From contig NZ_JANQJQ010000025.1 in the NCBI RefSeq assembly GCF_028281565.1, positions 62,001 through 126,000 of the forward strand: DNA of 64,000 nucleotides, in the 5' to 3' direction. The translations under genes were made by a program, and so were the position numbers. The DNA is from Seonamhaeicola sp. GTDB lineage: Bacteria; Bacteroidota; Bacteroidia; Flavobacteriales; Flavobacteriaceae. The notes beneath the pieces are model-generated. The model was not told the DNA's origin and made no database searches. It saw nothing but the letters and a program-made list of their open reading frames with translations. Positions 10,362 to 58,678 of this stretch are shown here, piece by piece; within the stretch, counting starts at the first letter, position 1, and the number at the start of each line of letters is the position of its first letter.

Positions 10362-10436
10362 GTCACCTTGAGCGCAGTCGAAAGGTCTTAAAAAACAGGA
10401 ATCTTAATTAGGTTTCGACTGCGCTCAACCCGACAT
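10362..10436. repeat. Two inverted copies of the GAGCGCAGTCGAA repeat
   Basis: TTGAGCGCAGTCGAAA (10368-10383) and its exact reverse complement (10413-10428) are separated by 29 bases and can form a long hairpin. This is the same repeat unit that is found inside leuS and at the 3' end of the LytS-like gene. Confidence 0.85.
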
Positions 10437-44234: not shown

Positions 44235-44585
44235 TTATTCGGCGTGTAACCAGGCTTTTTTCTCTAATAATTCTTCTTCTGATTCTACATGGTCTTCGTC
44301 AGGCACACAACAGTCTACCGGACAAACAGAAGCACATTGTGGCTCTTCGTGAAAACCTTTACATTCGGTACACTTATCAGGTACTATATAATAGAATTCA
44401 TCAGAGATAGGTTCGTTCATTTCATCAGCATCAACTTCCTCTCCACCAGGAGTCGTCACAGTACCACTTAAAGCGGTCTCGTCTGCATAGGCCCATTCCT
44501 GATCAGGCTCGTAAATTGCGTTATTAGGACATTCTACGATACAGGCATCGCAATTAATACATTCATCGGTTATTATAATCGCCAT
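44235..44585 (-). CDS. 2[4Fe-4S] ferredoxin
   Basis: 116 residues. Cluster motifs are CINCDACIVECPNNAI at the N-terminus and CTECKGFHEEPQCASVCPVDCC near the C-terminus, the latter with a longer loop as in Chromatium-type ferredoxins. An acidic insert of about 35 residues separates them. It is a one-electron carrier for the PFOR and KOR enzymes encoded beside it and a plausible electron donor to complex I. It diverges from korA, with 169 bases between the start codons. Confidence 0.9.
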   Translation of the reverse strand: MAIIITDECINCDACIVECPNNAIYEPDQEWAYADETALSGTVTTPGGEEVDADEMNEPISDEFYYIVPDKCTECKGFHEEPQCASVCPVDCCVPDEDHVESEEELLEKKAWLHAE

Positions 44586-44754
44586 AATTTATTATTTTTA
44601 AGACATGATTTGTAAAAATAGCTATCTTTTTAAAATATTTATATGATAAATTTCATATTGCTTGCAAAAAAGTAAAATTATATTTGAAACTTATCGTATC
44701 CATAAAATTATAGATTTTTAATAAATTTAATTAGATTTTTAACTTTTTTATTGC

Positions 44755-46608
44755 ATGACAACAACTCAAATTAAGCATCATCCGGAAACACTTGAAGCAG
44801 TTATTATTAGATTTGTTGGTGATTCCGGCGATGGGATGCAATTAACCGGTACGCAGTTCTCTGATACTTCTGCTATGTTTGGTAATGATATAGCAACATT
44901 TCCTAATTATCCTGCGGAGATTAGAGCCCCTCAGGGGAGTCTGTATGGCGTGTCCGGGTTTCAGGTGCATATAGGTAGTGTTGAGATCAGTACGCCCGGA
45001 GATGAAGTAGATTTATTAGTTGCAATGAATCCAGCCGGTTTAAAGACCAATTTACATGCGGTAAAGCCTGGTCATACCATTATTGTAGATACAGATGCTT
45101 TTACTAAAAAGAACCTGGAAAAGGCGCAATATGAGAGCAACCCCTTAGAGGACGGAAGTTTAGATAACTACCGGGTTATTGAGGTCACCATGACGTCATT
45201 GACAAAAGAAGCCTTAAAAGATGTTGAAGGATTAGACAATAAGAGTATTACACGAAGTAAAAACATGTTTGCTTTAGGGATGGTTTACTGGATGTATGAC
45301 AGATCTACAGATCACACCATAGAGTTCTTTAAGAAAAAGTTCCAGTCAAAACCCGCATTAATTGAGGCTAACACTAAAGTACTAAACACAGGGTACTATT
45401 TTGCCGAAACGCTTGAATTGATTCCCAATGCTTATGCTATTGCTCCTGCCAAGATGGAGGCCGGAACCTATAGAATAATAATGGGTAATACGGCAACCGC
45501 CTGGGGGTTTTTGGCAGCGTCTGAGAAATGTGGTTTGGATCTGTTTTTAGGGTCTTACCCCATTACTCCGGCTTCCGATATTCTTCATGAGTTGGCAAAA
45601 CACCAGCATTTTGGAGTAAAAACGTTTCAGGCAGAAGATGAAATTGCCGGTATAACCTCCGCCATAGGTGCCTCCTTTGGAGGGAATTTGGCGCTTACCA
45701 CAACTTCTGGGCCGGGTTTGGCCCTTAAAGGAGAAGCTTTGGGTTTGGCCATGATGATTGAAATGCCTTTGGTTGTGGTAAATGTACAAAGAGGAGGGCC
45801 ATCAACAGGATTACCAACAAAAACGGAACAATCTGATTTGCTTCAGACATTGTACGGCAGAAATGGTGAGAGCCCCGTTATTGTTATTGCCGCCAGTACA
45901 CCTGCAAACTGTTTTGATTTTGCCTATGAAGCCGCAAAACTTACCTTGGAGCATATGACTCCGGTAGTTTTGTTAACAGACGGATATATTGCAAATGGTT
46001 CGGCGCCCTGGAAGATTAAATCCGTTAAGGACATGCCTGAAATTAAAAGTAAAATTATCCGGGAGGCTAAAGAGAATTGGCATCCATATGATAGAGACGA
46101 TACAACCTTAGCACGTTTTTGGGCTATACCGGGAACCCCCGGTTTAGAACATAGAGTTGGTGGTCTGGAAAAAGACCGTGTAAGTGGAAACGTATCTTAT
46201 GTTCCGGATAACCATGAGTATATGGTCAATATCAGGGCTGAAAAAATAAAGCGCGTTCAGGATGCTATCCCGGAATTAAAACCGGAATTTGTTGATTCAG
46301 GTGATTTATTGGTTGTTGGCTGGGGCGGTACTTACGGATCCATATATTCGGCTGTAAAACATGTAACAGAGGAAGGGGTTGATACTATAGGTCTTGCACA
46401 TTTCAATTATATAAATCCCTTGCCTAAAAATACGTTGGATGTATTAAAGCGATTTAAGAAAGTATTGGTTTGTGAACTAAATAACGGACAGTTCGCTAAA
46501 GTATTAAAACAACATTTTGATATTGAAATCTTGCAGTTCAATAAGATCCAGGGATTACCTTTTGGTAATGAGGAGTTAGTTCAAAAATTTAAACAATTGG
46601 TAAAATAG
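44755..46608 (+). CDS. korA: 2-oxoacid:ferredoxin oxidoreductase, fused gamma-alpha subunit
   Basis: 617 residues. The N-terminal gamma domain (IIRFVGDSGDGMQLTGTQFS) is fused to the alpha domain (from about residue 240; FLGSYPITPASDILHELAK and TTTSGPGLALKGEALGLAMM). This two-subunit form with KorB oxidises 2-oxoglutarate to succinyl-CoA, giving reduced ferredoxin. The gene is first in a run that continues through korB and the whole nuo cluster. Substrate preference (2-oxoglutarate against branched or aromatic 2-oxoacids) is inferred from the overall family likeness, not from residues. Confidence 0.93.
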   Translation: MTTTQIKHHPETLEAVIIRFVGDSGDGMQLTGTQFSDTSAMFGNDIATFPNYPAEIRAPQGSLYGVSGFQVHIGSVEISTPGDEVDLLVAMNPAGLKTNLHAVKPGHTIIVDTDAFTKKNLEKAQYESNPLEDGSLDNYRVIEVTMTSLTKEALKDVEGLDNKSITRSKNMFALGMVYWMYDRSTDHTIEFFKKKFQSKPALIEANTKVLNTGYYFAETLELIPNAYAIAPAKMEAGTYRIIMGNTATAWGFLAASEKCGLDLFLGSYPITPASDILHELAKHQHFGVKTFQAEDEIAGITSAIGASFGGNLALTTTSGPGLALKGEALGLAMMIEMPLVVVNVQRGGPSTGLPTKTEQSDLLQTLYGRNGESPVIVIAASTPANCFDFAYEAAKLTLEHMTPVVLLTDGYIANGSAPWKIKSVKDMPEIKSKIIREAKENWHPYDRDDTTLARFWAIPGTPGLEHRVGGLEKDRVSGNVSYVPDNHEYMVNIRAEKIKRVQDAIPELKPEFVDSGDLLVVGWGGTYGSIYSAVKHVTEEGVDTIGLAHFNYINPLPKNTLDVLKRFKKVLVCELNNGQFAKVLKQHFDIEILQFNKIQGLPFGNEELVQKFKQLVK

Positions 46609-46609
46609 T

Positions 46610-47623
46610 ATGGAAACAACGGTAGACAATAAATACACCTTTAAGGATTTTGCCAGTGACCAGGAAGTTAGATGGTGTCCCGGTTGTGACGATTATGTTA
46701 TTTTAAGAGCCATGCAAAAGGCGCTTCCTGAGATGGGTGTTAAAAAAGAAGATGTAGTGTTCATTTCGGGAATAGGCTGTTCTTCGCGTTTTCCCTATTA
46801 TATGGACACCTATGGTATGCACAGTATTCATGGGAGGGCGCCGGCCATTGCTACCGGAACTAAATTAGCTAACCCTGACCTGAGTGTATGGGTAATAACA
46901 GGTGATGGCGACTCCATGGCCATTGGTGGAAATCATTTTATACATGCCTTAAGAAGGAATGTTGATTTAAACATCGTACTCTTTAATAATGAAATATACG
47001 GTTTAACAAAAGGACAGTTTTCGCCAACCTCTTTGGTAGGACAGAAAACAAAATCTTCCCCTTACGGAAATACGCAACCACCGTTTTCAGCCGGAGAATT
47101 GGCCATAGGGGCTCAAGCGCGTTTCTTCGCACGAATTGGGGGTAATACACCAAAAGAAATGACTCAAATTTTTATTGAGTCTGAAAAGTTTAAAGGGACC
47201 TCCCTTATCGAGGTACTGCAGAACTGCCCGATTTTTAATGATGGCTGCTATGACGAGTTTACAGATAAAGCTGTTCGGGAAGACAGGCAATTGTATGTTG
47301 AGCATGGTAAGCCTATGATCTTTGGTAAAGAAAAAGATAAAGGGCTTGTTCTAAACGGTTTGAAACTTGAAGTGGTAACCATTGGAGAGGATGGTGTTAC
47401 AGAAGAAGATATTCTGGTTCACGATGCTAAAGAACAAGATCCTACGCTACACCAAATGCTGGTGCGGTTACATTACCCTAAAGTTACGGGTATTATCAGA
47501 AGTTTTGATGATGTAACCCTGGAGGAACGAAAAAATGATCAAATAGAACAAGTTAAATCAAATTCGAAGTTCAGTGTTACTGACGATTTGTTCTTTTCCG
47601 GGGATATTTACGAGGTTGAATAA
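46610..47623 (+). CDS. korB: 2-oxoacid:ferredoxin oxidoreductase, beta subunit
   Basis: 337 residues. The thiamine-diphosphate motif is VITGDGDSMAIGGNHFIHA with NNEIYGLTKGQFSPTS. WCPGCDDY near the N-terminus and SGIGCSSRFPYY carry the cysteines that bind its single [4Fe-4S] cluster. Partner of KorA one base upstream. Its stop is 13 bases from the nuoA ATG, with no terminator between, so KOR and complex I are probably on one transcript. Confidence 0.94.
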   Translation: METTVDNKYTFKDFASDQEVRWCPGCDDYVILRAMQKALPEMGVKKEDVVFISGIGCSSRFPYYMDTYGMHSIHGRAPAIATGTKLANPDLSVWVITGDGDSMAIGGNHFIHALRRNVDLNIVLFNNEIYGLTKGQFSPTSLVGQKTKSSPYGNTQPPFSAGELAIGAQARFFARIGGNTPKEMTQIFIESEKFKGTSLIEVLQNCPIFNDGCYDEFTDKAVREDRQLYVEHGKPMIFGKEKDKGLVLNGLKLEVVTIGEDGVTEEDILVHDAKEQDPTLHQMLVRLHYPKVTGIIRSFDDVTLEERKNDQIEQVKSNSKFSVTDDLFFSGDIYEVE

Positions 47624-47636
47624 ATAATAAAGATCT

Positions 47637-47987
47637 ATGGGATCAGAAGCTATAATTGTTTTTTTTCTTGCCGGAGTTGTACTGGTGGCGGGAGCTAATT
47701 TTTTGTCAAATTTAGTATCTCATAAATCAGATAACACGCAGAAGCGGGAACCCTATGAGAGCGGTATGAAAACCATAGGACCTACCTGGGTACAGTTTAA
47801 AGTGGGATATTACCTTTTCGCCATATTGTTTTTGATCTTTGATGTGGAAGTAGCTTTTTTGGTGCCCTGGGCAGTGGTTTTTGGTGATTTTGGAGGCTTA
47901 GCTTTTATTGAGATATTCATCTTTTTATTCATACTTGGACTGGGGTTACTTTATGCATGGAAAAAAGGCGCATTAAAATGGGAGTAG
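47637..47987 (+). CDS. nuoA: Complex I subunit A
   Basis: 116 residues with three membrane helices and the conserved loop [16 protein letters not shown] between the first two. [20 protein letters not shown] marks the second helix. NuoA is a small subunit at the join of the membrane and peripheral arms near the quinone site. It begins the nuo genes directly behind korB, and its end overlaps nuoB by ten bases if nuoB starts at 47978. Confidence 0.94.
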
Positions 47988-48544
47988 ATAACACATACAA
48001 AATACCGGATGATTTTCCCGGAAAAGTAATTCCTGCCGGGAACGGTGCCAATATTGTGGTGACCTCATTAGATAAAATAATTAATTGGGGCCGATCAAAC
48101 TCGTTGTGGTCCTTATATTTTGGAACCAGTTGTTGTGCCATTGAGATGATGCAGACGGGAGCCTCCAGGCACGATTATTCGCGGTTTGGATTTGAAGTAG
48201 CACGCCCTTCACCGCGTCAGGCCGATCTAATTATTATTGCCGGTACTATTGTAAATAAAATGGCGCCTGTGTTAAGACGGTTGTATGATCAAATGGCAGA
48301 GCCCAGATATGTTATAGCGATGGGAGCCTGTGCTATTTCCGGAGGGCCATTTTTCTATAATACGTATTCCGTAGTAAAAGGAGCAGACCATGTGATCCCC
48401 GTAGATGTTTATGTTCCGGGATGCCCGCCAAGGCCCGAAGCTTTATTGGAAGGTATGCTCATGTTACAGGACAAGATCAGGACCGAGAACATGAAAGAAA
48501 AGAAGAACCCTATTGAAGGGTTTGATGAAGGCTTTTATCAATAA
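47978..48544 (+). CDS. nuoB: Complex I subunit B (cluster N2)
   Basis: 188 residues. [16 protein letters not shown] and [16 protein letters not shown] hold the cysteines of cluster N2, the last Fe-S cluster before quinone. [15 protein letters not shown] is also diagnostic. In a complex I without NuoEFG, electrons must reach N2 through NuoI. The frame extends back to ATG at 47957, but ATG at 47978 gives [14 protein letters not shown] and a modest overlap with nuoA. Confidence 0.95.
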
Positions 48545-48548
48545 GATT

Positions 48549-49100
48549 ATGACTAACGAAGCATTGCAAATACTAATTGGTAGTTGGTTTCCGAATCCTG
48601 AGGCTGATAAGGTTGTTGATCAGGTAGAAGTCTTGGCTGATGATGGGGAGGATCCTGTACCACAAGATCCTGTAAACCCCAGTTTGTTGGAATTTGCCGA
48701 GGAAGGGTCACAATTTTTAAATGTTGAGGTAAGTCCGGACCATTTACATGAATTAATGAGTAAGTTAAAAGCCAATACAGAAACAAGTTTTGATTATTTA
48801 TTCTGTTTAAGCGGTGTTGATTGGGGAACGGAACTGGGCATCGTATACCATCTGGAATCTACGGCTCATCGGCATAATATAGTAGTTAAAGTAAAGACAG
48901 AGGACAGGGAAAATCCAACCTTTGATTCGGTTTGGGATATATGGCGAACCGCAGAGTTTCATGAACGCGAAGTCTTTGATTTTTTCGGAATAAAGTTTAA
49001 TAATCACCCAAATTTAAAGCGTCTCTTTTTAACACCGGAATGGGATGGGTTTCCGCTTAGAAAAGATTATGAAGATGCTATAAATATGGTCGTTAAATAG
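48549..49100 (+). CDS. nuoC: Complex I subunit C (30 kDa), with an acidic N-terminal extension
   Basis: 183 residues. The conserved C-terminal region is EFHEREVFDFFGIKFNNHPN followed by LRKDYE. The first 50 residues contain an acidic, proline-rich stretch (DDGEDPVPQDPVNP) not usual in flavobacterial NuoC. NuoC and NuoD are separate genes here. The frame opens upstream at 48513, but the ATG at 48549 lies four bases after the nuoB stop and gives MTNEALQILIGSW. Confidence 0.92.
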   Translation: MTNEALQILIGSWFPNPEADKVVDQVEVLADDGEDPVPQDPVNPSLLEFAEEGSQFLNVEVSPDHLHELMSKLKANTETSFDYLFCLSGVDWGTELGIVYHLESTAHRHNIVVKVKTEDRENPTFDSVWDIWRTAEFHEREVFDFFGIKFNNHPNLKRLFLTPEWDGFPLRKDYEDAINMVVK

Positions 49101-49105
49101 TGTGT

Positions 49106-50230
49106 ATGCAAGAAACCACTACTTTGAATAATAGTTTTAAATCGGAAGAGTATTTCATTAATATGGGACCTCAGCATCCTGCTACGCATGGGGTGCTTCG
49201 CCTTTTATTAACTATTGACGGTGAGATCATCAAAAAAGTAGAACCGGATCTGGGTTATATCCATCGTTCCATCGAGAAGATGTGTGAACGGGATAGCTAC
49301 CAACAAATAGTGCACTTAACAGATAGAATGGACTATCTGTCTTCACATATTAATAATGAAGCGGTTTGTTTAACGGTTGAAAACGCTTTACAACTTGAGA
49401 TCCCGGATCGTGTAAAAGTGGTAAGAACCATTATTGGAGAGCTTACCAGGATTGCATCGCATTGTCTTTGGTGGGGTGTTATGGGAATGGATGTAGGTGC
49501 GCTTACTACCTTTTTTTACGGGTTTAGAGACCGGGAAATGATCAATGATATTTTTGAAGAAACCTGTGGTGCCAGATTAACTATGAACTACAATGTTCCG
49601 GGAGGATTAATGTGGGATATCCATCCTAACTTTATTAACAGGGTTAAGAACTTTGTGGCACATTTCAAGACGAAAATTCCGGAATACGATAGATTATTGA
49701 CAGAAAATATCATATTTCAGAAGCGTACCAAAGGCGTAGGTGTTTTATCAAAAGAAGATGCCATATCATTTGGTGTTTCAGGGCCTGTAGGGCGAGGTTC
49801 CGGTTATTCCTGCGACGTTAGAAAATACCACCCTTATAGTGCGTTAGATAAAGTTACCTTTAATGAAGCATTAGAAACTGATGGAGACACCTTCGCACGC
49901 TATAATGTGAGAATTAAGGAATTATGGGAATCACTATCAATTGTAGAACAGTTAATAGATAATATACCGGATGGAGAGTACAGGGTAAAAACAAATGCTG
50001 TGATAAAACTACCTAAGGGGGAATTCTATCAAAAAGTGGAAACGGCAAGAGGCGAATTAGGAGTTTATATCATTAGTACAGGAACGAAAAACCCCTATAG
50101 ATTAAAATTCAGGTCGCCGGGGTTTTCAAACTTATCTGCCCTTAACCATATGGCAGTTGGTGGGAAAATAGGAGACTTAGTGGCCACTATGGCTACTTTA
50201 GATCTGGTAATTCCGGATATAGATAGATAA
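49106..50230 (+). CDS. nuoD: Complex I subunit D (49 kDa, quinone site)
   Basis: 374 residues. FINMGPQHPATHGVLRLLL is the signature of the 49-kDa subunit. The histidine of QHPATHG and a tyrosine of YLSSHINNEAVC line the quinone pocket. LGYIHRSIEKMCE and RIASHCLWWGVMGMDVGA are further blocks. GTG at 49100 could also be read, but ATG at 49106 is the sensible start. The gene is followed after ten bases by nuoH: no nuoE, nuoF or nuoG lies between. Confidence 0.95.
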   Translation: MQETTTLNNSFKSEEYFINMGPQHPATHGVLRLLLTIDGEIIKKVEPDLGYIHRSIEKMCERDSYQQIVHLTDRMDYLSSHINNEAVCLTVENALQLEIPDRVKVVRTIIGELTRIASHCLWWGVMGMDVGALTTFFYGFRDREMINDIFEETCGARLTMNYNVPGGLMWDIHPNFINRVKNFVAHFKTKIPEYDRLLTENIIFQKRTKGVGVLSKEDAISFGVSGPVGRGSGYSCDVRKYHPYSALDKVTFNEALETDGDTFARYNVRIKELWESLSIVEQLIDNIPDGEYRVKTNAVIKLPKGEFYQKVETARGELGVYIISTGTKNPYRLKFRSPGFSNLSALNHMAVGGKIGDLVATMATLDLVIPDIDR

Positions 50231-50240
50231 AGAACAGAGC

Positions 50241-51305
50241 ATGAGAATAGCTTTAAATATAACCGAAAATATTCAGGAATGGCTACTTGGAATGATGTCC
50301 GAGACTGCGGCTAATTATATGGCCATGGTCATTGTTGCCTTGATCTATTTAGGGATATTTTCAGTAGCAGGCTTATTTCTTGTTTTGATAGAAAGAAGAG
50401 TAGCCGCCTGGTTTCAATTGCGTATTGGTCCGAACCGGGTTGGTTTTCAGGGTTTACTTCAAACCATGGCAGATGCCCTGAAACTGGTATCAAAGGAGCT
50501 TACTGGGACTGATAGGGCCGATAAATTTCTGTACAATTTAGCCCCGTATTTTGTGATCATCTCTTCTTTAATGGCGTTGGGAGTTTTACCTTTTACTAAA
50601 GAATTTCAGGCTTTTGATATCAATATTGGCGTCTTCTTTTTAATAGCAATATCCTCAATAGGGGTCATAGGTATTTTATTAGGAGGCTGGGCTAGTAACA
50701 ATAAGTTTGCCCTAATTGGTGCCATGCGTAGTGGCGTTCAAACCATTAGCTATGAATTATCAGTGGGCTTGTCGCTTTTAACTATGATTCTCTTAACAGG
50801 ATCATTACAACTTTCGGAAATTGTAGAAGTACAAAAAAGCGGGTGGTTGATTGTTCAGGGGCATATTCCTGCAATCATTGCCTTTATGATCTTTATGATA
50901 GCCGGAACTGCAGAAACCAACAGAGCACCTTTTGATATGGTGGAGGCCGAATCGGAATTAGGAGCCGGTTTCCATACGGAATATTCGGGAATGAAGTTCG
51001 CCTATTTTTTCTTAGCGGAGTTTATCAATATGTTCTTAATAGCAGCCATTGGAACCACGGTGTTTTTCGGAGCCTGGTTGTCTCCTTTCGGGATCACCGA
51101 ATCCGTTCCATGGTTAGGAGCATTTTGGTTTCTGGCAAAGACCTTAATACTTGTGTTTTTAATGATGTGGTTCAGATGGACCTTTCCAAGATTACGGGTA
51201 GATCAGCTATTAACACTTGAGTGGAAATATTTACTACCGATTAATCTGGTAAATATTGTAATTATGGCATTTATTGTTTGGCAAAACTTAATTATTCAGA
51301 TATAA
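50241..51305 (+). CDS. nuoH: Complex I subunit H (membrane, quinone chamber)
   Basis: 354 residues with about eight membrane helices. LIERRVAAWFQLRIGPNRVGFQG and the acidic loop NRAPFDMVEAESELGAGFHTEYSGM form the E-channel and quinone chamber. The C-terminal MWFRWTFPRLRVDQLL is also diagnostic. NuoH connects the peripheral arm to the proton pumps. Ends inside the untranslated start of nuoI. Confidence 0.95.
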   Translation: MRIALNITENIQEWLLGMMSETAANYMAMVIVALIYLGIFSVAGLFLVLIERRVAAWFQLRIGPNRVGFQGLLQTMADALKLVSKELTGTDRADKFLYNLAPYFVIISSLMALGVLPFTKEFQAFDINIGVFFLIAISSIGVIGILLGGWASNNKFALIGAMRSGVQTISYELSVGLSLLTMILLTGSLQLSEIVEVQKSGWLIVQGHIPAIIAFMIFMIAGTAETNRAPFDMVEAESELGAGFHTEYSGMKFAYFFLAEFINMFLIAAIGTTVFFGAWLSPFGITESVPWLGAFWFLAKTLILVFLMMWFRWTFPRLRVDQLLTLEWKYLLPINLVNIVIMAFIVWQNLIIQI

Positions 51306-51310
51306 ATAGT

Positions 51311-51787
51311 ATGGGCTATTTTTCTAACATATACCAGGGAATTAAAACATTGCTGAAGGGGATGAGTGTGACCGGAAAGTATTTTTTGAATTCCAGAAAA
51401 GGAGCGATTACCCAGCAATATCCGGATAACAGAGCAACACTTAAAATGTTTGATCGATTCCGTGGCGAAGTTATTATGCCGCATGATGAGAATAATGAGC
51501 ATGCATGCACGGGCTGTCAGAAATGTGAAATTGCTTGTCCCAATGGTACCATAGAGATTATTTGGGATAGAGGCTTGGATGAAAATACCGGTAAAAAGAA
51601 AAAGAAAATAGACAAGTTTGTGTACCATTTAAGTATGTGCACTATGTGTGGGCTGTGTATTGATGTTTGTCCAACCGATGCTATTGAATGGGGACAGAAT
51701 TTTGAAAATTCAGTTTACGATAGAACCGCTTTAACCAGGGTTTTAAATAAGCCGGGTTCTAAGTTAAGACCCGGAGTGGAAGATTAA
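51311..51787 (+). CDS. nuoI: Complex I subunit I (two [4Fe-4S], 23 kDa)
   Basis: 158 residues with two motifs, ACTGCQKCEIACPNGT and CTMCGLCIDVCPTDAIEWG, for clusters N6a and N6b. In a complex without NuoEFG these are the outermost clusters and the likely docking point for ferredoxin. The frame opens at 51278 inside nuoH, but ATG at 51311, just after the nuoH stop, gives MGYFSNIYQGIKTLLKG, a standard start. Confidence 0.94.
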   Translation: MGYFSNIYQGIKTLLKGMSVTGKYFLNSRKGAITQQYPDNRATLKMFDRFRGEVIMPHDENNEHACTGCQKCEIACPNGTIEIIWDRGLDENTGKKKKKIDKFVYHLSMCTMCGLCIDVCPTDAIEWGQNFENSVYDRTALTRVLNKPGSKLRPGVED

Positions 51788-51790
51788 ACA

Positions 51791-52351
51791 ATGGAAAGAA
51801 TTATATTTTACATTTTAGCCTTAACCATGATCGTATTTGCCATGGCGGCTGTGAGGAGCCGTAAGATGTTGAGGTCGGTTATTTTTTTATTATTTGTTCT
51901 GGCAGGCATTGCAGGCATTTTCTTTTTGATAGACTATAATTTTCTGGCGGCGGTACAACTTACGGTTTATGCCGGGGGCATCATTGTTTTAATAATATTT
52001 TCCGTGCTTTTGGTACACCATATTGAATTAGAACTGGAAGTAGCAAAACCCTTAAAGCAGGTCATTACAGGGATTGCCTGTTTATTGGGAATTGGCGTGG
52101 TTTTAAATACAATTTACACGCATGATTTTAAAGTTGTGGAAAATGATCTGACCACTAGCACAGCCGATATTGGATCAAAATTATTAAGTGTTGAAGCCGG
52201 AGGGTTTATTCTGCCCTTTGAAGTGATAAGTGTGGTACTGCTGGCTGCTATGATCGGGGCCATCATCATTGCCAAGGGCAAGAAATTAGAGAAAGGAAGC
52301 TCGGAGACAGAAGACAGAAGCCAAATTAATACCGGTTCAAATGAGATTTGA
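51791..52351 (+). CDS. nuoJ: Complex I subunit J, with a repeat-derived C-terminus
   Basis: 186 residues with five membrane helices. FLAAVQLTVYAGGIIVLIIFS is the pi-bulge-bearing third helix typical of NuoJ. The last 20 residues (LEKGSSETEDRSQINTGSNEI) are encoded by a GAAG-type degenerate repeat (52294-52322) and look unlike NuoJ. Proton pumping should not be affected since the tail is outside the membrane. It is separated from nuoK by 98 bases that contain another copy of the repeat. Confidence 0.93.
   Translation: MERIIFYILALTMIVFAMAAVRSRKMLRSVIFLLFVLAGIAGIFFLIDYNFLAAVQLTVYAGGIIVLIIFSVLLVHHIELELEVAKPLKQVITGIACLLGIGVVLNTIYTHDFKVVENDLTTSTADIGSKLLSVEAGGFILPFEVISVVLLAAMIGAIIIAKGKKLEKGSSETEDRSQINTGSNEI
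52294..52322. repeat. GAAGCTCGGAGACAGAAGAC-type repeat within the nuoJ 3' end
   Basis: A degenerate run of GGAAGY/AGACAGAAG units. The same style of units appear at 52401-52437 and 52768-52800 and, as complement, at 38420-38451. Here the run lies in the coding sequence and rewrites the last residues of NuoJ. Confidence 0.6.
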
Positions 52352-52400
52352 ATTTTAGTAAAAATATCAGGCAAGATGAGAAATAAAATAAAAATTAACC

Positions 52401-52437
52401 CTTCAACTTCGGTCTGCCGTCATCGGTCTACCGTCTT
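52401..52437. repeat. CTTCGGTCTGCCGTCATCGG-type repeat between nuoJ and nuoK
   Basis: Units CTTC, GGTCTGCCGTC and GGTCTACCGTC with a period of about 10-11 bases. It sits in the 98-base nuoJ-nuoK gap. Confidence 0.6.
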
Positions 52438-52449
52438 AAATTAAGTTTT

Positions 52450-52767
52450 ATGATAGAAGGGATTACCATATATGAAATACTAACCGTAACCACCATCCTG
52501 TTTTTTATTGGGGTTTATGGGTTTTTAACAAGAAAGAATTTGATATCCATGTTAATTTCTGTGGAGTTGATCTTAAATGCCTCCGTAGTGAATTTCGTGG
52601 TGATCAATAAATATTTATATCCGGATATGTTGCAGGGTGTATTTTTTTCAATTTTTATTATTGCCGTGGCGGCCGCGGAAACTGCTTTGGCGGTCTCCAT
52701 AATAATAAATCTGTACAGGCAAATTAGCTCTGTTGAAGTTAAAGACACTGAGGTCATGAAGCACTAG
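52450..52767 (+). CDS. nuoK: Complex I subunit K
   Basis: 105 residues with three membrane helices. The conserved glutamate-bearing segments are LISMLISVELILNASVVNFV and IFIIAVAAAETALAVSII. NuoK is one of the small pumping-chain subunits. Its stop is immediately followed by a GAAG-type repeat. Confidence 0.95.
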   Translation: MIEGITIYEILTVTTILFFIGVYGFLTRKNLISMLISVELILNASVVNFVVINKYLYPDMLQGVFFSIFIIAVAAAETALAVSIIINLYRQISSVEVKDTEVMKH

Positions 52768-52800
52768 AAAGTTAGAAGCCCGAAGTTGGAAGTTAGAAGT
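52768..52800. repeat. GAAGCCCGAAGTTGGAAGTT-type repeat between nuoK and nuoL
   Basis: AAAGTTAGAAGCCCGAAG then TTGGAAGTTAGAAGT, a degenerate tandem array with a period of about 7-8 bases. It begins directly after the nuoK stop. Confidence 0.65.
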
Positions 52801-52837
52801 ATAAAACAATTGATTAATAAGAAGACGATTAAATAAG

Positions 52838-52930
52838 ATGAGTTCAATAAACACAACAGCGTTTTTAAACTGGTCTTCTGTCGAAGGAAACGTCAAAGAC
52901 AGGCTGTTGTCACAAGTTGAAGTTGAATAG
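52838..52930 (+). CDS. Possible 30-residue peptide between nuoK and nuoL
   Basis: An ATG at 52838 begins a frame of 30 codons ending TAG at 52930, three bases before nuoL. The peptide begins MSSINTTAFLNWSSVEGN and has no membrane segment. A purine-rich GAAGACGATTAAATAAG precedes the ATG. It may be a real small gene, or the remnant of a sequence left by repeat expansion. I do not recognise it, and a short frame like this can occur by chance. Confidence 0.25.
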   Translation: MSSINTTAFLNWSSVEGNVKDRLLSQVEVE

Positions 52931-52933
52931 TCT

Positions 52934-54853
52934 ATGAATATAACATACATCATACTGATCCCGATCATTCCTTTTATAGTGTTCCTGCTATTAGGAATCT
53001 TTAACCAAAAAATTAAACCTGCTGTTTCTGGTTACGTTGGGGTTTTCGGATTGTTAGCTTCCGCCATGTTGTCTTTTTATGCAGCGTATCAATACTTTTT
53101 TGTAAATGGGAAAGTAGATGGCGTCTATCAGACCTTCACAGAAAAGACTGTCTGGATGCATTTTACGGACACCCTTCATATAGACATGGGTATACTGGTG
53201 GACCCTATTTCAGTCATGATGCTCGTAGTGGTTTCCGTAGTATCATTAATGGTGCATATTTATAGCAGGGGCTATATGAAAGGGGATGAAGGCTATACGA
53301 AGTTCTTTGCGTTTCTGGGGCTGTTTACCTTTTCTATGTACGGTTTGGTTTTAGCCACTAATTTATTCCAGATCTATATTTTCTGGGAATTGGTTGGGGT
53401 GTCGTCTTATTTACTGATCGGTTATTATTATACTAAAACATCCGCTATTGCCGCCGCAAAAAAAGCATTTATCGTGACGCGTTTTGCGGACTTCGGATTC
53501 TTAATAGGTATCATGATCATAGGGTTCTATACAGGAACATTCGACTTTGAAACCCTAAATAATCCTGAAGGTAGCGCCATATTGAACTGGGCAGCAACCT
53601 CGTTTATGGGCTTATCAGTCATTACCTGGGCATTGCTATTCATTTTTATCGGAGGTGCCGGAAAATCAGCCATGTTCCCATTACATATTTGGTTGCCTGA
53701 TGCTATGGAAGGACCAACACCGGTTTCAGCTTTAATTCACGCAGCAACTATGGTGGTAGCAGGCGTCTTTTTAGTAGCCCGATTATTTCCTATGTTTTAC
53801 TTTGTAGAGGATGGGTTTGCCTTGAATATTGTAGCCTACGTTGGAGCATTTTCAGCATTATTTGCGGCTGTTATAGCCATAACGCAAACCGATATAAAGC
53901 GGGTTTTAGCCTTTTCAACCATGTCCCAATTGGGATATATGATGCTGGGGCTTGGTGTTTCAGGATATGAAGGCCATGAAGGTGTTGGTTATATGGCCTC
54001 CATGTTCCATTTGTTTACACATGCCATGTTTAAGGCTTTGCTGTTTTTAGGAGCAGGCTCGGTTATTCATGCTGTACATAGTAACTATTTAAAAGATATG
54101 GGTAGTTTAAGAAAGTATATGCCCATAACTAATATCACCTTTTTAATTGCAGCTTTAGCCATTGCAGGGGTGCCCCCTTTAGCCGGGTTCTGGAGTAAGG
54201 ATGAGATCTTAGTGGCTGCTTTTGAGCATAATAAACTAATCTATTACGTTGGTGTTTTTGTAGCCGGTTTGACCGCCTTCTACATGTTTAGGCTTTACTT
54301 TGGCATTTTCTGGGGGAAAGACAGAACCTATGACCACAAACCTAAAGAATCGCCATTATCCATGACCTTTCCATTACTGGTTTTAGCAGTGTTGAGTGTG
54401 GTAGGCGGCTTGATCCCGTTTAGTGAATTTGTGACAGCAGATAAAGTTGGCTTTGAAGCACATTTAAATTATCCTTTAGCAGCTATTGCCACCACCGTTG
54501 GAATTATTGGTATTGGGTTGGCATGGATATTCTATAAAAAAGAAAATAATTTATCAGATAGGTACGCCAAAGCTTTTGGACCGCTATACAAATGGGCAAG
54601 TGATAAATTTTACTTCGATGAGATCTATATGTTTATCACTAAAAAGATCCTGTTTAAAAGGGTATCTGCACCTATAGCAAAGTTCGATAGAAAAGTAGTT
54701 GATGGCACTATGAATGGTATTGGAAACAAGACCGTTTTGATATCCCAAAAGATAAAAGGCGTGCAGTCCGGTAAAGTACAGGACTATGCTTTTGTATTTG
54801 TTGCGGGTGTAGTTGTTATAGCCCTGGTGTTTATTTATTTATGGTCAAACTAA
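52934..54853 (+). CDS. nuoL: Complex I subunit L (antiporter-like proton pump)
   Basis: 639 residues with about 16 helices including the long lateral helix at the C-terminus. FLIGYYYTKTSAIAAAKKAFI, FIGGAGKSAMFPLHIWLPDAME(G) and the lysine/histidine set of the Mrp-antiporter core are visible, as in TQTDIKRVLAFSTMSQLGYM. This is the terminal pump of the membrane arm. Confidence 0.96.
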   Translation: MNITYIILIPIIPFIVFLLLGIFNQKIKPAVSGYVGVFGLLASAMLSFYAAYQYFFVNGKVDGVYQTFTEKTVWMHFTDTLHIDMGILVDPISVMMLVVVSVVSLMVHIYSRGYMKGDEGYTKFFAFLGLFTFSMYGLVLATNLFQIYIFWELVGVSSYLLIGYYYTKTSAIAAAKKAFIVTRFADFGFLIGIMIIGFYTGTFDFETLNNPEGSAILNWAATSFMGLSVITWALLFIFIGGAGKSAMFPLHIWLPDAMEGPTPVSALIHAATMVVAGVFLVARLFPMFYFVEDGFALNIVAYVGAFSALFAAVIAITQTDIKRVLAFSTMSQLGYMMLGLGVSGYEGHEGVGYMASMFHLFTHAMFKALLFLGAGSVIHAVHSNYLKDMGSLRKYMPITNITFLIAALAIAGVPPLAGFWSKDEILVAAFEHNKLIYYVGVFVAGLTAFYMFRLYFGIFWGKDRTYDHKPKESPLSMTFPLLVLAVLSVVGGLIPFSEFVTADKVGFEAHLNYPLAAIATTVGIIGIGLAWIFYKKENNLSDRYAKAFGPLYKWASDKFYFDEIYMFITKKILFKRVSAPIAKFDRKVVDGTMNGIGNKTVLISQKIKGVQSGKVQDYAFVFVAGVVVIALVFIYLWSN

Positions 54854-54859
54854 AGTAAT

Positions 54860-56347
54860 ATGGATATTTTATCACTCTTCATAATCGTTCCAGTAGTTAC
54901 CATTCTGTTTTTGGTCTTCGCAAAAAGTCTGAAACAGGCTAGAATGGTTGCCATGGTTGGGAGTTTGGTTCAACTGGGGATGGCCATAAATCTGGTGTTC
55001 GCCTACCTGAAAGAGCGTACGGTTAATGATAGTATTATGGTTTTTACCAAAGATGTGGTTTGGTTTGAACCCTTTAATATTCATTATAATATTGGGGTAG
55101 ATGGTATTTCAGTGGCCTTATTACTTTTAACAGCTATCGTAGTACTGGCAGGTGTTTTTATCTCCTGGAAAATGTACGATCTGCCTAAGGAATTCTTTAT
55201 ATCGCTTATTGTATTATCCATTGGAGTATATGGTTTTTTCATTTCCATAGACCTGTTCACCATGTTTGTGTTCTTTGAAATTGCCGTTATTCCCATGTAT
55301 CTTTTAATTGGGATTTGGGGTTCCGGACCCAGGGAATATTCCGCTATGAAATTAACCCTGATGCTTATGGGAGCCTCGGCGATTCTATTGGTGGGTATTT
55401 TAGGGATTTATTTTAACTCTGATGTGGATGGTGGCGCACTAACCTTTAACATCCTGGAAATAGCACAAGTCAATATTCCTGTTGAAGTACAAAAATTATT
55501 TTTCCCATTGACTTTCATCGGTTTTGCAGTCATAGGAGCCTTATTCCCGTTTCATACCTGGTCGCCTGATGGTCATGCGTCTGCCCCCACGGCTGTATCC
55601 ATGTTACATGCCGGTGTGTTAATGAAGTTGGGAGGTTACGGGGTATTTAGAGTAGCTATGTATTTATTGCCGGAGGGTGCTGTGGACTGGTCGTGGATTT
55701 TTATCATTCTTTCCGTGGTAGGAGTGATTTACGGGGCCTTTAGCGCGATTAAACAAACCGACTTAAAATATATCAACGCCTACTCCTCAGTGAGCCATTT
55801 GGGGCTGGTCTTATTTGCCTTGCTAATGCTGAATAAAACTGCCTGGAACGGTGCCATATTACAGTCCTTGTCACATGGGTTTATGACGGCCTTATTCTTT
55901 GCGCTGATTGGGATGATCTACGAGAGAACGCATACACGGGATATTACCAGGTTAGGAGGTTTATTAAAAGTGATTCCCTTTATTTCCGTAATATATGTTA
56001 TAGCTGGTTTAGCATCCTTAGGCTTGCCCGGATTTAGTGGGTTTGTGGCCGAGATGAACATTTTTGTCGGAGCCTTTCAGCAGGAAGATATGTTTATGAG
56101 GGTGGCGACTGTTTTATCGATTTCAGTTATAGTTATAACAGCGGTTTACATATTGAGAGTGGTGGGTATTATGTTGATGGGGCCCGTTAAAAATGAGTCG
56201 TATTTGAAATTGGAGAAAGTAACATGGTATGAAAAATTCGGCATTCTATTGTTATTAATTCCAATAGTGGGTATTGGGGTAGCACCACTTTGGCTAAGTG
56301 ATATGATATTGGAAAGTTTAGATCCGTTTATAAAAGGATTATTATAA
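54860..56347 (+). CDS. nuoM: Complex I subunit M (antiporter-like proton pump)
   Basis: 495 residues, about 14 helices. GVDGISVALLLLTAIVVLAG contains the usual start of the pump core, with GALFPFHTWSPDGHASAPTA and KQTDLKYINAYSSVSHLGLV as the lysine-bearing broken helices. LPGFSGFVAEMNIF follows. It starts six bases after nuoL. Confidence 0.96.
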   Translation: MDILSLFIIVPVVTILFLVFAKSLKQARMVAMVGSLVQLGMAINLVFAYLKERTVNDSIMVFTKDVVWFEPFNIHYNIGVDGISVALLLLTAIVVLAGVFISWKMYDLPKEFFISLIVLSIGVYGFFISIDLFTMFVFFEIAVIPMYLLIGIWGSGPREYSAMKLTLMLMGASAILLVGILGIYFNSDVDGGALTFNILEIAQVNIPVEVQKLFFPLTFIGFAVIGALFPFHTWSPDGHASAPTAVSMLHAGVLMKLGGYGVFRVAMYLLPEGAVDWSWIFIILSVVGVIYGAFSAIKQTDLKYINAYSSVSHLGLVLFALLMLNKTAWNGAILQSLSHGFMTALFFALIGMIYERTHTRDITRLGGLLKVIPFISVIYVIAGLASLGLPGFSGFVAEMNIFVGAFQQEDMFMRVATVLSISVIVITAVYILRVVGIMLMGPVKNESYLKLEKVTWYEKFGILLLLIPIVGIGVAPLWLSDMILESLDPFIKGLL

Positions 56348-56365
56348 AAGTTAAAGAACCAAATA

Positions 56366-57793
56366 ATGGATTTTAGTAGTTTTTTATTAATGAGGCACGA
56401 AATAATACTATTGGCAGTCATCTTATTGTTGGTGGTGGCCGAAGTGTCCATATCCAGTAATAAAAAGAGTAGTGTGGTTCATTTAGCGATCTTTTTGTTT
56501 GGGATACATACCATTGCAGGGTTCTTTAAACCGGATTACGGAAGTCTTTTCGGGGGCATGTTCCATACAAATGCACTGATACATTTTTTTAAGAATGTGT
56601 TGAATATCGGTGTATTGATTTTGCTTTTACAATCGGCCGATTGGATAGAGGAAAAGATCATCCAGCAACAAAGAGGGACGGAATTTTTCATGCTTCTTTT
56701 TTCATCCTTGCTTGGGATGTATTTTATGATCTCTGCGGGCGATTTTCTTATGTTCTATTTAGGATTGGAATTGTCTATGCTTCCGGTAGCGGCCCTGGCA
56801 GCTTATGAAACTACAAAACGTATATCCAGCGAATCCGGTATTAAGCTCATTCTTTCTGCTGCACTGGCATCTGGTGTAACCCTGTTTGGAGTGTCTATGC
56901 TTTATGCTACATCCGGCTCTATTTATTTTGCCGATATTGTCGAAGCCATTTCTTCAGATAATTTGACCATTTTAGGCTTCGTGTTGTTTTTTGCCGGTTT
57001 AGGATTTAAAATTTCATTAGTACCGTTTCATTTGTGGACGGCTGACGTGTATGAAGGCGCTCCAATAAGTATTGCTTCATATTTATCGGTAATATCTAAA
57101 GGGGCTGCGGTTTTTATTTTAATGATCTTACTCTTTACCGTCTTAAAACCATTAATGTTTATATGGGAAAACATGGTTTATATACTGGCTGTTATAACCA
57201 TGTTTATTGGAAATCTGTTTGCCCTTAGGCAGCAGAACATGAAACGCTTTTTGGCTTTTTCGTCCATTGCCCAGGCAGGATTTATTTTGCTGGGACTTAT
57301 ACCGGGGAATGCCTTGGGAACAGCAACGGTCGTTTACTTTGTATTGATCTATGTGTTTTCAAACCTGGCAGCTTTTGGTGTGGTGCAGGCCATTTCATTA
57401 CACACCGGAAAAGAGCAGATGAAGGACTATGAAGGGCTGTACAGGACCAACCCTAATTTAAGCTTGGTTATGATGTTGGCATTATTTTCGCTTGCCGGAA
57501 TACCTCCTGTAGCCGGTTTTTTTGGGAAGTTCTTTTTATTTACGGCAGCCGCCAGTAAAGGGTATTATTTGCTGGTATTTTTAGCAGTTGTTAATGTGAC
57601 TATCTCCCTGTATTATTATTTGTTGGTGGTCAGAGCTATGTTTTTAAGACAAAGTGAGACGGCTATTCCGTATTTTAAAAGTAAAATATATATGAAATTA
57701 GGTTTGCTGATTACCGCTTTGGGGATCTTAGTGCTTGGGTTGTATAGTCCGCTATACGATTTTATTCATGAGTTAAGTAACAGTATTTTTTAG
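56366..57793 (+). CDS. nuoN: Complex I subunit N (antiporter-like proton pump)
   Basis: 475 residues, about 14 helices. Diagnostic segments are GFKISLVPFHLWTADVYEGA, RQQNMKRFLAFSSIAQAGFI and SLAGIPPVAGFFGKFFLFTAA. It completes the membrane arm. A small unknown gene starts six bases after its stop. Confidence 0.95.
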   Translation: MDFSSFLLMRHEIILLAVILLLVVAEVSISSNKKSSVVHLAIFLFGIHTIAGFFKPDYGSLFGGMFHTNALIHFFKNVLNIGVLILLLQSADWIEEKIIQQQRGTEFFMLLFSSLLGMYFMISAGDFLMFYLGLELSMLPVAALAAYETTKRISSESGIKLILSAALASGVTLFGVSMLYATSGSIYFADIVEAISSDNLTILGFVLFFAGLGFKISLVPFHLWTADVYEGAPISIASYLSVISKGAAVFILMILLFTVLKPLMFIWENMVYILAVITMFIGNLFALRQQNMKRFLAFSSIAQAGFILLGLIPGNALGTATVVYFVLIYVFSNLAAFGVVQAISLHTGKEQMKDYEGLYRTNPNLSLVMMLALFSLAGIPPVAGFFGKFFLFTAAASKGYYLLVFLAVVNVTISLYYYLLVVRAMFLRQSETAIPYFKSKIYMKLGLLITALGILVLGLYSPLYDFIHELSNSIF

Positions 57794-57799
57794 AAGATT

Positions 57800-58144
57800 A
57801 TGGCGTTAACAGGAAAACATATGTTTGGAAGTATTGAGGAAACAAGGGTGACCTTTGTTGAAAAAGGGATCAGTGCAGATAGAAAAGACTTTTTAAAGCA
57901 ACTTTTAGAATATAATGGCTTTGAAGTCCTTGTTCAGGAAGATAAAAAGAAAACTGAAGAGGATCCGCAACTATACACCATTGGGGTCACCGATATGGTA
58001 TTTAATCCAACCATCTGGATTTTTCAACGCAAATTAGAAACCTTTGATGGTCAAAAGGTTACCCAGGGGTATTGGAATCAGGAAACGGAAGATACCAAAC
58101 CGCAATACTGGAATAACGGCAGCAATTTTGATAATCAAGATTAA
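57800..58144 (+). CDS. Unknown small protein at the end of the nuo operon
   Basis: 114 residues, soluble and acidic, no signal peptide, no cysteine and no membrane segment. Opening MALTGKHMFGSIEETRVTF is followed by FEVLVQEDKKKTEEDPQLYT and IGVTDMVFNPTIWIFQRKL; the C-terminus is rich in Trp, Asn and Gln. The gene lies six bases after nuoN with no terminator between, so it is on the same transcript. I recognise no family. Its position makes it a candidate accessory subunit or assembly factor of this ferredoxin-type complex I, which is inference from context only. Confidence 0.75.
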   Translation: MALTGKHMFGSIEETRVTFVEKGISADRKDFLKQLLEYNGFEVLVQEDKKKTEEDPQLYTIGVTDMVFNPTIWIFQRKLETFDGQKVTQGYWNQETEDTKPQYWNNGSNFDNQD

Positions 58145-58348
58145 ATAGGTGCTGTAGGCCTTATTCCATATTTTTTTCACTCATTTTTTTAGTTGTAAAT
58201 AACAGAATTATAATGGCTTATGATGTGTCATAAATTAATCCTATTAAATCGATAGAGATAATCGATTTAAAAAACTTAGGTTTTGGTAAAATTAAATTTA
58301 TTTTTGACTGCTAAATTTAATAAAACACTAAAAAACATTAGCATTGTC

Positions 58349-58678
58349 ATGGTTGACGTAACGATAAAAATAACGGATAGAGAAGGTATAAAACACGAAA
58401 TTCTGGCCCCTACGGATATGGCCATGAATTTAATGGAAGTAGTGCGTTCGTATGAACTGGCTCCCGAGGGGACTATTGGTGTTTGTGGTGGTATGGCCAT
58501 GTGTGCATCCTGCCAGTGCTACGTGAATAGCAATGTTGAGTTACCTCCTATGACCGATGATGAAGAAGCTATGTTATCGGAAGCCTTTGATGTTAAGGAA
58601 AACTCACGTTTAGGATGTCAAATCCAGGTGACTCCTGAAATGGAAGGTCTTGAGGTTGAGTTGGCTCCTGAAAGCTAA
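58349..58678 (+). CDS. [2Fe-2S] ferredoxin, adrenodoxin type
   Basis: 109 residues. The cluster ligands follow the vertebrate/ISC pattern: CGGMAMCASCQC supplies three cysteines (C-x5-C-x2-C) and SRLGCQIQ the fourth. A beta-grasp fold is expected from VTIKITDREGIKHE. Such ferredoxins serve Fe-S cluster assembly or cytochrome P450s, and might also be a carrier here. The frame opens at 58283, but the ATG at 58349 gives the proper start MVDVTIKITDREG. It lies some 200 bases after the unknown nuo-linked gene, so its transcription may be separate. Confidence 0.92.
   Translation: MVDVTIKITDREGIKHEILAPTDMAMNLMEVVRSYELAPEGTIGVCGGMAMCASCQCYVNSNVELPPMTDDEEAMLSEAFDVKENSRLGCQIQVTPEMEGLEVELAPES

Follow-up and report, generated by a model that had tools for sequence, protein, structure and literature searches.

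From which donor does a complex I without an NADH-oxidizing module take its electrons? This question is raised by a 64,000-nucleotide stretch of a Seonamhaeicola sp. genome (the window: positions 62001-126000 of contig NZ_JANQJQ010000025.1, in a genome of 5.27 Mb and 48 contigs that a tool estimates as 100% complete with 2.1% contamination). Open reading frame (ORF) calls in the window place korA-korB-nuoABCDHIJKLMN-orf114 in this order on the plus strand at 44755-58144, with no nuoEFG in the run (Table 1); korAB encode a 2-oxoacid:acceptor oxidoreductase, the nuo genes the complex I subunits and orf114 a small protein. We consider it likely that this kor-nuo run specifies an EFG-less proton pump with ferredoxin:menaquinone oxidoreductase activity; KorAB and NifJ would reduce its ferredoxin, and it would work beside Nqr and 2-oxoglutarate dehydrogenase (OGDH). 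Menaquinone is the quinone typical of this group.

Gene content and possible cotranscription of the kor-nuo run

All eleven subunits of an EFG-less complex I (NuoA, B, C, D, H, I, J, K, L, M and N) are encoded in the run. The ORF calls reproduce the joints given by an earlier, sequence-only reading of the window, with nuoD ending at 50230 and nuoH beginning at 50241, hence 10 bp and no gene between them, and with 13 bp separating korB from nuoA. The two 4Fe-4S motifs of NuoI, the cluster motif of NuoB and the quinone-site motifs of NuoD are intact in the window, and strict patterns for them were matched in 16/16, 14/16 and 11/16 relatives, respectively, the exceptions being variants in rows from family f8 and from the Chitinophagaceae (family f4). 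KorB carries thiamine pyrophosphate (TPP) and cluster motifs; the patterns used for KorB and for the Nuo subunits are those that we take to mark these sites.

The run was compared with a family draw of 100 Flavobacteriaceae genomes, each from a different genus, a phylum draw of 198 Bacteroidota genomes, and loci from named records. That kor and nuo form one run without an intervening terminator, as first read, agrees with their common strand, the short gap and a terminator scan that gave no terminator-like site between korB and nuoA. The strict Bacteroidetes-type promoter pattern, whose consensus we take to be TTG-N17-23-TAnnTTTG, has a single match on both strands of 43.8-59.9 kb, just before korA, and none before nuoA in the window. 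A wider pattern (N16-24) lies 86-105 bp before korA in 3/11 Flavobacteriaceae loci of drawn genomes, 0/4 from named records and 0/2 of f8; before nuoA it was absent from 17 Flavobacteriaceae and f8 relatives and present in one further locus, that of Flavisolibacter nicotianae (L109). A sigma-70 scan was at chance level (49 found, 51.1 expected), with one plus-strand match within korB (47467-47496). The genes kor and nuo may be cotranscribed.

The NADH module

The set of NuoE, NuoF and NuoG with an NADH/FMN site that characterizes a 14-subunit NADH:quinone oxidoreductase was not found. PF01512, the NuoF domain, gave two matches in the window genome, both of them NuoE-NuoF fusions inside NiFe-hydrogenase operons; they score 320 and 371 bits against a NuoF cut-off of 558.7, and adjoin the hydrogenase large subunit and a fusion of NuoG-N-terminal-like and small-subunit-like domains (L008). 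No protein genome-wide exceeded the NuoG cut-off, and matches below it lay at two places in the hydrogenase operons and at three molybdopterin-enzyme-like genes on contig C42, one of which is NapA. The missing NADH-oxidizing module pointed out by the sequence-only reading is thus absent from the run, and no NuoF of complex I type is present in the genome. Finding nuoEFG elsewhere had been named at the time as a refutation of that reading; formally the two NuoEF-like fusions would count as such, but these belong to hydrogenase operons, and three relatives with the operon have no NuoF domain over the cut-off (below).

At L008 (G000:C3:158001-177500), three NiFe-hydrogenase operons lie side by side, two with the NuoE-NuoF fusions and one with a neighbour that looks cytochrome b-like by eye. 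The two fusion-bearing operons appear to be of the NAD-linked type.

The kor-nuo genomes number 14: G000 (window), G032, G088, G037, G082, G047, G031, G007, G003 and G025 from the family draw, and G217, G202, G148 and G283 from the phylum draw. Together they hold 19 PF01512 proteins over the cut-off, of which 18 adjoin hydrogenase-type, formate dehydrogenase-type or Rnf genes and one (L072, in G047) lies beside a HoxU-like protein. G032, G088, G082, G031, G003 and G217 have solely the formate dehydrogenase-type or Rnf ones, and three relatives with the kor-nuo operon, G202, G007 and G037, have none over the cut-off (G202 is a single contig, 100% complete, with one 13-bit fragment that contains a stop; G037 is in about 320 contigs). 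Because the domain is missing from these three genomes and sits beside different operons in the others, we conclude that this type of Nuo has no NuoF of its own. Two classes of match in relatives were considered as stand-alone NuoF and rejected: the loci of those of about 440-480 aa show RnfC, and those of about 550 aa proved to be NuoEF-like, with a neighbouring molybdopterin enzyme that we name formate dehydrogenase-like.

NADH could still enter if a NuoEF-like hydrogenase diaphorase docked on the EFG-less Nuo and delivered electrons from NADH or H2. The two fusion-bearing operons of the window genome, with their NuoG-N-terminal-like proteins, would offer such a partner, and the same idea is raised for cyanobacteria in the accessible part of PMC9414918. 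As a general substitute for the missing module the diaphorase is rejected, since G202, G007 and G037 have the operon and no NuoF domain over the cut-off; the six genomes with formate dehydrogenase-type or Rnf proteins alone and the presence of NqrA count against it as well, and we regard this route as very improbable.

Spread and synteny

NuoD was matched in 10/100 genomes of the family draw and full-length KorA in 14/100. In all ten NuoD-bearing genomes korA and nuoD share a strand, with korA 4.2-4.5 kb upstream, and this identical placement indicates linkage beyond chance; the synteny that the sequence-only reading had suggested aligning across Flavobacteriaceae is therefore conserved wherever nuo of this type was found in the draw. 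A second Nuo type occurs in the same family, in genus g101, where eight of nine genomes of the phylum draw have a distant NuoD (E ~1e-70), one PF01512 protein each and no KorA; these are presumably ordinary 14-subunit complexes. In the phylum draw, nine of 198 genomes encode a NuoD at least 68% identical to that of the window. Six of them, four Flavobacteriaceae and two members of f8, have korA at 4.3-4.5 kb upstream; in the other three, which are Chitinophagaceae, korA is on another contig. Among the matches listed, no NuoD and KorA lay within 10 kb of each other in the remaining Bacteroidota.

Thirteen linked loci, chosen for their linkage, all keep the order korA-korB-nuoABCDHIJKLMN-orf114, with korB of L056 split into two frames. 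Linkage was also seen in at least five named records, which may overlap in organism with the drawn genomes: an uncultured Lutibacter (L087), a Salegentibacter metagenome-assembled genome (MAG; L090), the MAGs L088 and L089, and F. nicotianae. The last has nifJ, fdx, korAB and the same Nuo type in one stretch; an approximately unbiased (AU) test of this linkage against the KorA tree gave p 0.194, which does not decide whether its origin was independent.

A NuoD tree of 45 rows (excluding L091, L115 and L121) contains one 22-row clade (100/99) that unites the window with Flavobacteriaceae, f8, Chitinophagaceae, Marinifilum, other Bacteroidota and Bacteroides sp. (L112). The flanks of 12 loci were examined by reading. 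In L109, korAB stand upstream of nuoA. A Marinifilum sp. MAG (L105, 454-8163) has HdrA-, VhuD-, sulfhydrogenase beta-/gamma- and dihydroorotate dehydrogenase-like genes upstream of an orf114-type nuo operon, the dihydroorotate dehydrogenase-like gene ending 19 bp before nuoA, and in the Chitinophagaceae genome G190 (L062) an FNR-like flavoprotein gene lies 38 bp before nuoA. No such partner was recognized by reading in the remaining nine of the 12. This diversity of upstream partners fits a low-potential soluble donor and proves nothing by itself.

Rnf in place of Nuo

In two genomes, G061 and G062, the locus of nifJ and fdx divergent from korAB carries rnf genes where nuo would start, and neither genome has a NuoD match (G062 is 84% complete). 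Rnf is a ferredoxin-oxidizing ion pump (ferredoxin:NAD oxidoreductase) that takes soluble ferredoxin. The rnf block of G061 (L065) encodes RnfB, C, D, G, E and A, with RnfC and RnfD over their NCBIfam cut-offs; that of G062 (L066), named from L065, comprises A to D and part of C, where the contig ends. In the window and in G202 and G217 (L058, L059), orf114 is followed by a gene for a 2Fe-2S ferredoxin-like protein; in G061 this gene stands at the distal end of rnf.

In a KorA tree of 43 rows, all nuo-linked KorA of Flavobacteriaceae and f8 form one 22-row clade (100/100), and the KorA of G061 and G062 are nested at different places within it. A single origin for these two was rejected on a 35-row tree (AU p 0.00997), the pair having been set by neighbouring genes and the test made after the tree was known. 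Within the family draw, Nuo or Rnf is present in 13/13 genomes that have this clade's KorA and in 1/87 of the others (G034; Fisher p 2e-15, kinship ignored); the 87 include eight genomes with PF01512 frames of 501-568 aa that were classed as non-Rnf by length alone, and G033, which has KorA of another lineage and neither Nuo nor Rnf. G003 has two near-identical korA genes, one at nuo and one at a contig end beside fdx, and its rnf also reaches a contig end; in G244 (f8), KorA of a different lineage lies beside rnf. Since two unrelated membrane pumps alternate beside KorAB, ferredoxin is the most plausible product that KorAB would hand on. This exchange is independent of the arguments of the sequence-only reading and is the best evidence here pointing to ferredoxin input.

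At L082 (G034:C2:120000-136000), rnfC-D-G-E-A has directly upstream of it the gene for a 1647-aa protein that shares 24% identity with NifJ. This protein is possibly a 2-oxoacid oxidoreductase fusion encoded next to Rnf, and the genome has no korA of the clade.

Electron donors and direction of flow

KorA is an OAFO-type fused alpha subunit and exceeds its family cut-off; its closest solved chain is 6n2n_A, and KorB has the solved homologues 5b46_B, 6n2n_B and 8ys5_C. Among these solved relatives are enzymes whose names refer to 2-oxoglutarate, to pyruvate or to 2-oxoacids generally, and 2-oxoglutarate as the substrate of KorAB is a guess at family level. NifJ is just as likely to supply reduced ferredoxin, and the dicluster ferredoxin encoded by fdx is a candidate carrier. 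Where the locus leaves room, fdx is beside korA in 10/10 Flavobacteriaceae loci of drawn genomes, and nifJ is beside fdx in 6/8 of these and in 3/4 loci from named records. The sequence-only reading had reduced ferredoxin from 2-oxoglutarate feeding NuoI. Its ferredoxin stands as the likely donor on account of the Rnf exchange; its 2-oxoglutarate is not proven and is too narrow given NifJ. The divergent fdx and nifJ beside korA had not been mentioned there, nor had the fact that the run closes with a gene for no known Nuo subunit.

A mechanism is proposed in which KorAB, acting on a 2-oxoacid that is probably 2-oxoglutarate, and NifJ, acting on pyruvate, would reduce ferredoxin, with the divergently encoded dicluster protein probably carrying the electrons. 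The low-potential ferredoxin would dock near NuoI, the proposed entry point, from where electrons would pass through the NuoI clusters and the NuoB cluster to quinone at NuoD, with proton pumping by a complex of NuoABCDHIJKLMN and probably orf114. Carrier, donor, pumping and the part played by orf114 are inferred. Electron transfer from ferredoxin to menaquinone yields clearly more energy than transfer from NADH to menaquinone, and this gain would make the route pay even with Nqr already taking care of NADH.

The same proteins might run in reverse, with proton motive force driving electrons from menaquinol to ferredoxin and KorAB and NifJ carboxylating as in the reductive tricarboxylic acid (TCA) cycle. 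KorAB enzymes are reversible, the nearest solved relative, 6n2n, is one that we take to be a reverse-TCA enzyme, and the genome encodes hydrogenases as well as an OGDH E1 for the oxidative step. Reduction of ferredoxin by menaquinol would require a very large driving force, and Rnf at the same locus suits ferredoxin oxidation at least equally well; we consider reverse flow unlikely.

Several observations weigh against ferredoxin-driven Nuo fed from this run. The scores of NuoA, NuoI, NuoJ and KorB fall below their cut-offs, although no other family matches these proteins better in an NCBIfam search. A promoter pattern before korA was found in just 4/12 Flavobacteriaceae loci (window and drawn genomes). 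In both f8 loci fdx and nifJ are not beside korA, and the Chitinophagaceae G190, G225 and G248 carry the same Nuo type away from korA, from which it follows that KorAB is no obligatory partner. The rnf genes of G061 and G062 are convergent with korAB, and thus occupy the same place as a separate transcript (the G062 contig ends inside rnf), and in G048 (L084, contig C331) korAB of the clade's type adjoin neither nuo nor rnf, Rnf being on another contig. Finally, for the missing NADH:quinone activity of the Bacteroides fragilis complex considered below, poor nuo expression is named by its authors as a possible cause in the accessible part of PMC7002350.

The gene after nuoN

A protein of 105-131 aa is encoded after nuoN in 16/16 relatives. 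A profile of 17 orf114 sequences matched 9/198 Bacteroidota genomes, exactly those whose NuoD is at least 68% identical to that of the window, and gave no match in the other 165 phylum-draw genomes with some NuoD match. Among 32 named loci with nuoN, orf114 is present in 11, two of them clipped by the locus end; of the 21 without it, L088, L102 and L109 end inside nuoN, and in the remaining 18 the identity of NuoD does not exceed 57%. One of these 18, Bacteroides sp. L112, belongs to the NuoD clade and lacks orf114 although about 930 bases follow its nuoN. The protein has no Pfam or NCBIfam match, and its best hit among PDB sequences is unrelated (E 0.043). An AlphaFold2 model from 10 sequences has a mean pLDDT of 83 and a pTM of 0.73; a Foldseek search with it gave nothing below E 0.56, with PII- and ACT-like domains among the top matches (TM ~0.3). 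An assignment as a known NDH-1 accessory subunit was rejected, as neither the PDB sequence search nor Foldseek gave a match.

Because of its co-occurrence with this Nuo type and its constant position, orf114 is likely a subunit or assembly factor, and a candidate twelfth subunit. A more specific proposal, which we put forward tentatively and hold to be possible at best, is that it serves a ferredoxin:menaquinone complex I of Bacteroidota as a dedicated twelfth subunit, where it would replace the N-module as a cofactor-free docking adaptor for low-potential donors: ferredoxin reduced by KorAB or NifJ, the HdrA-type module of the Marinifilum MAG, or the FNR-like protein of one Chitinophagaceae genome.

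An adaptor could also allow KorAB to pass electrons directly to the Q-module of Nuo, without free ferredoxin. The tight korAB-nuo linkage and the presence of orf114 in every phylum-draw genome with this Nuo would agree with such transfer. In Chitinophagaceae, however, orf114 is present where korA is unlinked, so that its role is not that of an adaptor for Kor alone; a gene for ferredoxin lies next to the run, and kor also stands beside Rnf, with its soluble ferredoxin. Direct transfer thus appears highly unlikely, and free ferredoxin is retained as the probable carrier.

Metabolic setting

NqrA was matched in 100/100 Flavobacteriaceae genomes, from which it follows that NADH has another entry. 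OGDH E1 was matched in 98/100, the window genome included, with 96 over the cut-off; in the ten kor-nuo genomes of the family draw, to which this count applies (G202, G217, G148 and G283 are excluded), it was missed in G003 (80% complete) and found as two contig pieces in G037. KorAB as the sole step for 2-oxoglutarate was rejected, since OGDH E1 is also encoded, and the coexistence of NqrA and OGDH E1 with the kor-nuo locus argues for an additional route. The description of the host as aerobe-like in the sequence-only reading does not fit a genome that encodes NapA over its cut-off and three NiFe-hydrogenase operons with three large subunits besides NqrA and OGDH E1. Given NapA and the hydrogenases, the ferredoxin-Nuo route probably serves growth with little or no oxygen, where it would run alongside Nqr, for NADH, and OGDH.

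Features of the locus and elsewhere in the window

Coordinates are collected in Table 1; the starts of nuoB and nuoC were set by us, and the mechanical ORFs begin slightly earlier.

Table 1. Annotated features at and around the kor-nuo run, in window coordinates (scores in bits, with family cut-offs)
Feature	Position	Strand	Basis or remark
nifJ, pyruvate:ferredoxin (flavodoxin) oxidoreductase	40421-43951	-	TIGR02176 1740, cut-off 911; divergent neighbour
fdx, dicluster 4Fe-4S ferredoxin, YfhL family	44235-44585	-	NF033683 95.7, cut-off 86; divergent from korA
Bacteroidetes-type promoter-like site	44658-44686	+	69-97 bp before korA
korA, 2-oxoacid:acceptor oxidoreductase alpha (gamma-alpha fusion)	44755-46608	+	TIGR03710 640, cut-off 482.8
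korB, 2-oxoacid:acceptor oxidoreductase beta	46610-47623	+	TIGR02177 237.6, below cut-off 261.9
nuoA	47637-47987	+	NF005839 108, below cut-off; position
nuoB, cluster ligand cysteines present	47978-48544	+	TIGR01957 240.9, cut-off 142.7
nuoC, not fused to nuoD	48552-49100	+	TIGR01961 123.4, cut-off 122.5
nuoD	49100-50230	+	NF004739 429.6, cut-off 360; quinone-site motifs
nuoH	50241-51305	+	NF004741 336.6, cut-off 305
nuoI, two 4Fe-4S binding motifs	51311-51787	+	TIGR01971 91.9, below cut-off 113
nuoJ	51791-52351	+	NF005168 93.4, below cut-off
nuoK	52450-52767	+	NF004320 86.2, cut-off 57
nuoL	52934-54853	+	TIGR01974 606, cut-off 407.5; best solved match 6hum_F
nuoM	54860-56347	+	TIGR01972 429.4, cut-off 263.8
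nuoN	56366-57793	+	TIGR01770 362.1, cut-off 332.6
orf114, 114-aa cysteine-free protein	57800-58144	+	conserved position after nuoN
2Fe-2S ferredoxin-like protein	58343-58678	+	below Pfam and NCBIfam cut-offs; downstream neighbour

Two observations lie far from the run. The 16-base sequence CTGAGCGCAGTCGAAG occurs at 2749-2764 inside leuS (1855-4887), and two copies with two mismatches face each other at 10368-10428; these three matches compare with 0.04 expected, and a dispersed repeat may have entered the essential gene leuS. On the last base of leuS begins a gene (4887-5873) whose product we take, from its sequence, to be an AbiH-like protein.

Comparison with known systems

EFG-less Nuo is already known. 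As far as our literature search reaches, new points are the kor-nuo linkage with its distribution, the exchange of Nuo for Rnf, and orf114: the search yielded no publication that describes korAB and nuo in one run in Flavobacteria, with limited coverage of subscription papers, which is no proof of absence. If the proposed route is correct, electrons would have a second way into respiration in these bacteria, coupled to ion pumping and drawing more energy from the oxidation of 2-oxoacids than is drawn via NADH, and orf114 is a new gene to look for in the purified complex.

The photosynthetic NDH-1 of cyanobacteria and chloroplasts likewise has the 11 shared core subunits without EFG, and takes its electrons from ferredoxin; the best solved match of the window NuoL is the F chain of 6hum, which we take to be a cyanobacterial NdhF. 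It differs in its accessory chains, none of which was matched when PDB was searched with orf114. The Rnf complex shares the place beside korAB in G061 and G062, but is an unrelated membrane complex, and the window genome has no RnfC-like PF01512 match.

Within Bacteroidota, the B. fragilis NUO has 10 genes, lacks nuoEFG and stands alongside Nqr; mutant analysis showed no NADH:quinone activity, and its donor is given as unknown in the accessible part of PMC7002350. It resembles the complex of the window in phylum, in the lack of nuoEFG and in the accompanying Nqr, and the NuoD of Bacteroides sp. L112 falls in the window's clade, whereas the L112 locus has no kor, no separate nuoC match and no orf114. 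Campylobacterota offer a functional parallel: according to a review (PMC6682613), a Nuo that contains NuoX and NuoY receives electrons from POR and OOR via flavodoxin or ferredoxin, so that there too complex I is supplied by 2-oxoacid oxidoreductases instead of NADH. There nuoXY replace nuoEF, whereas in the window kor is part of the run and no NuoX or NuoY lies at the place of nuoEF between nuoD and nuoH (no genome-wide search for their homologues was made).

Many organisms have an EFG-less complex I, and its donor is an open question in the literature; PMC11238625 cites a failed search for a common donor across bacteria (Moparthi and Hagerhall 2011). The same paper proposes pyruvate:ferredoxin oxidoreductase (PFOR) and ferredoxin as donors for the EFG-less Nuo of Desulfitobacterium from co-expression (PMC11238625). 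In Desulfitobacterium the donor was thus inferred from co-expression, whereas in the window the donor enzyme and the pump share a locus, and this shared locus together with the Rnf exchange gives a directly testable donor hypothesis.

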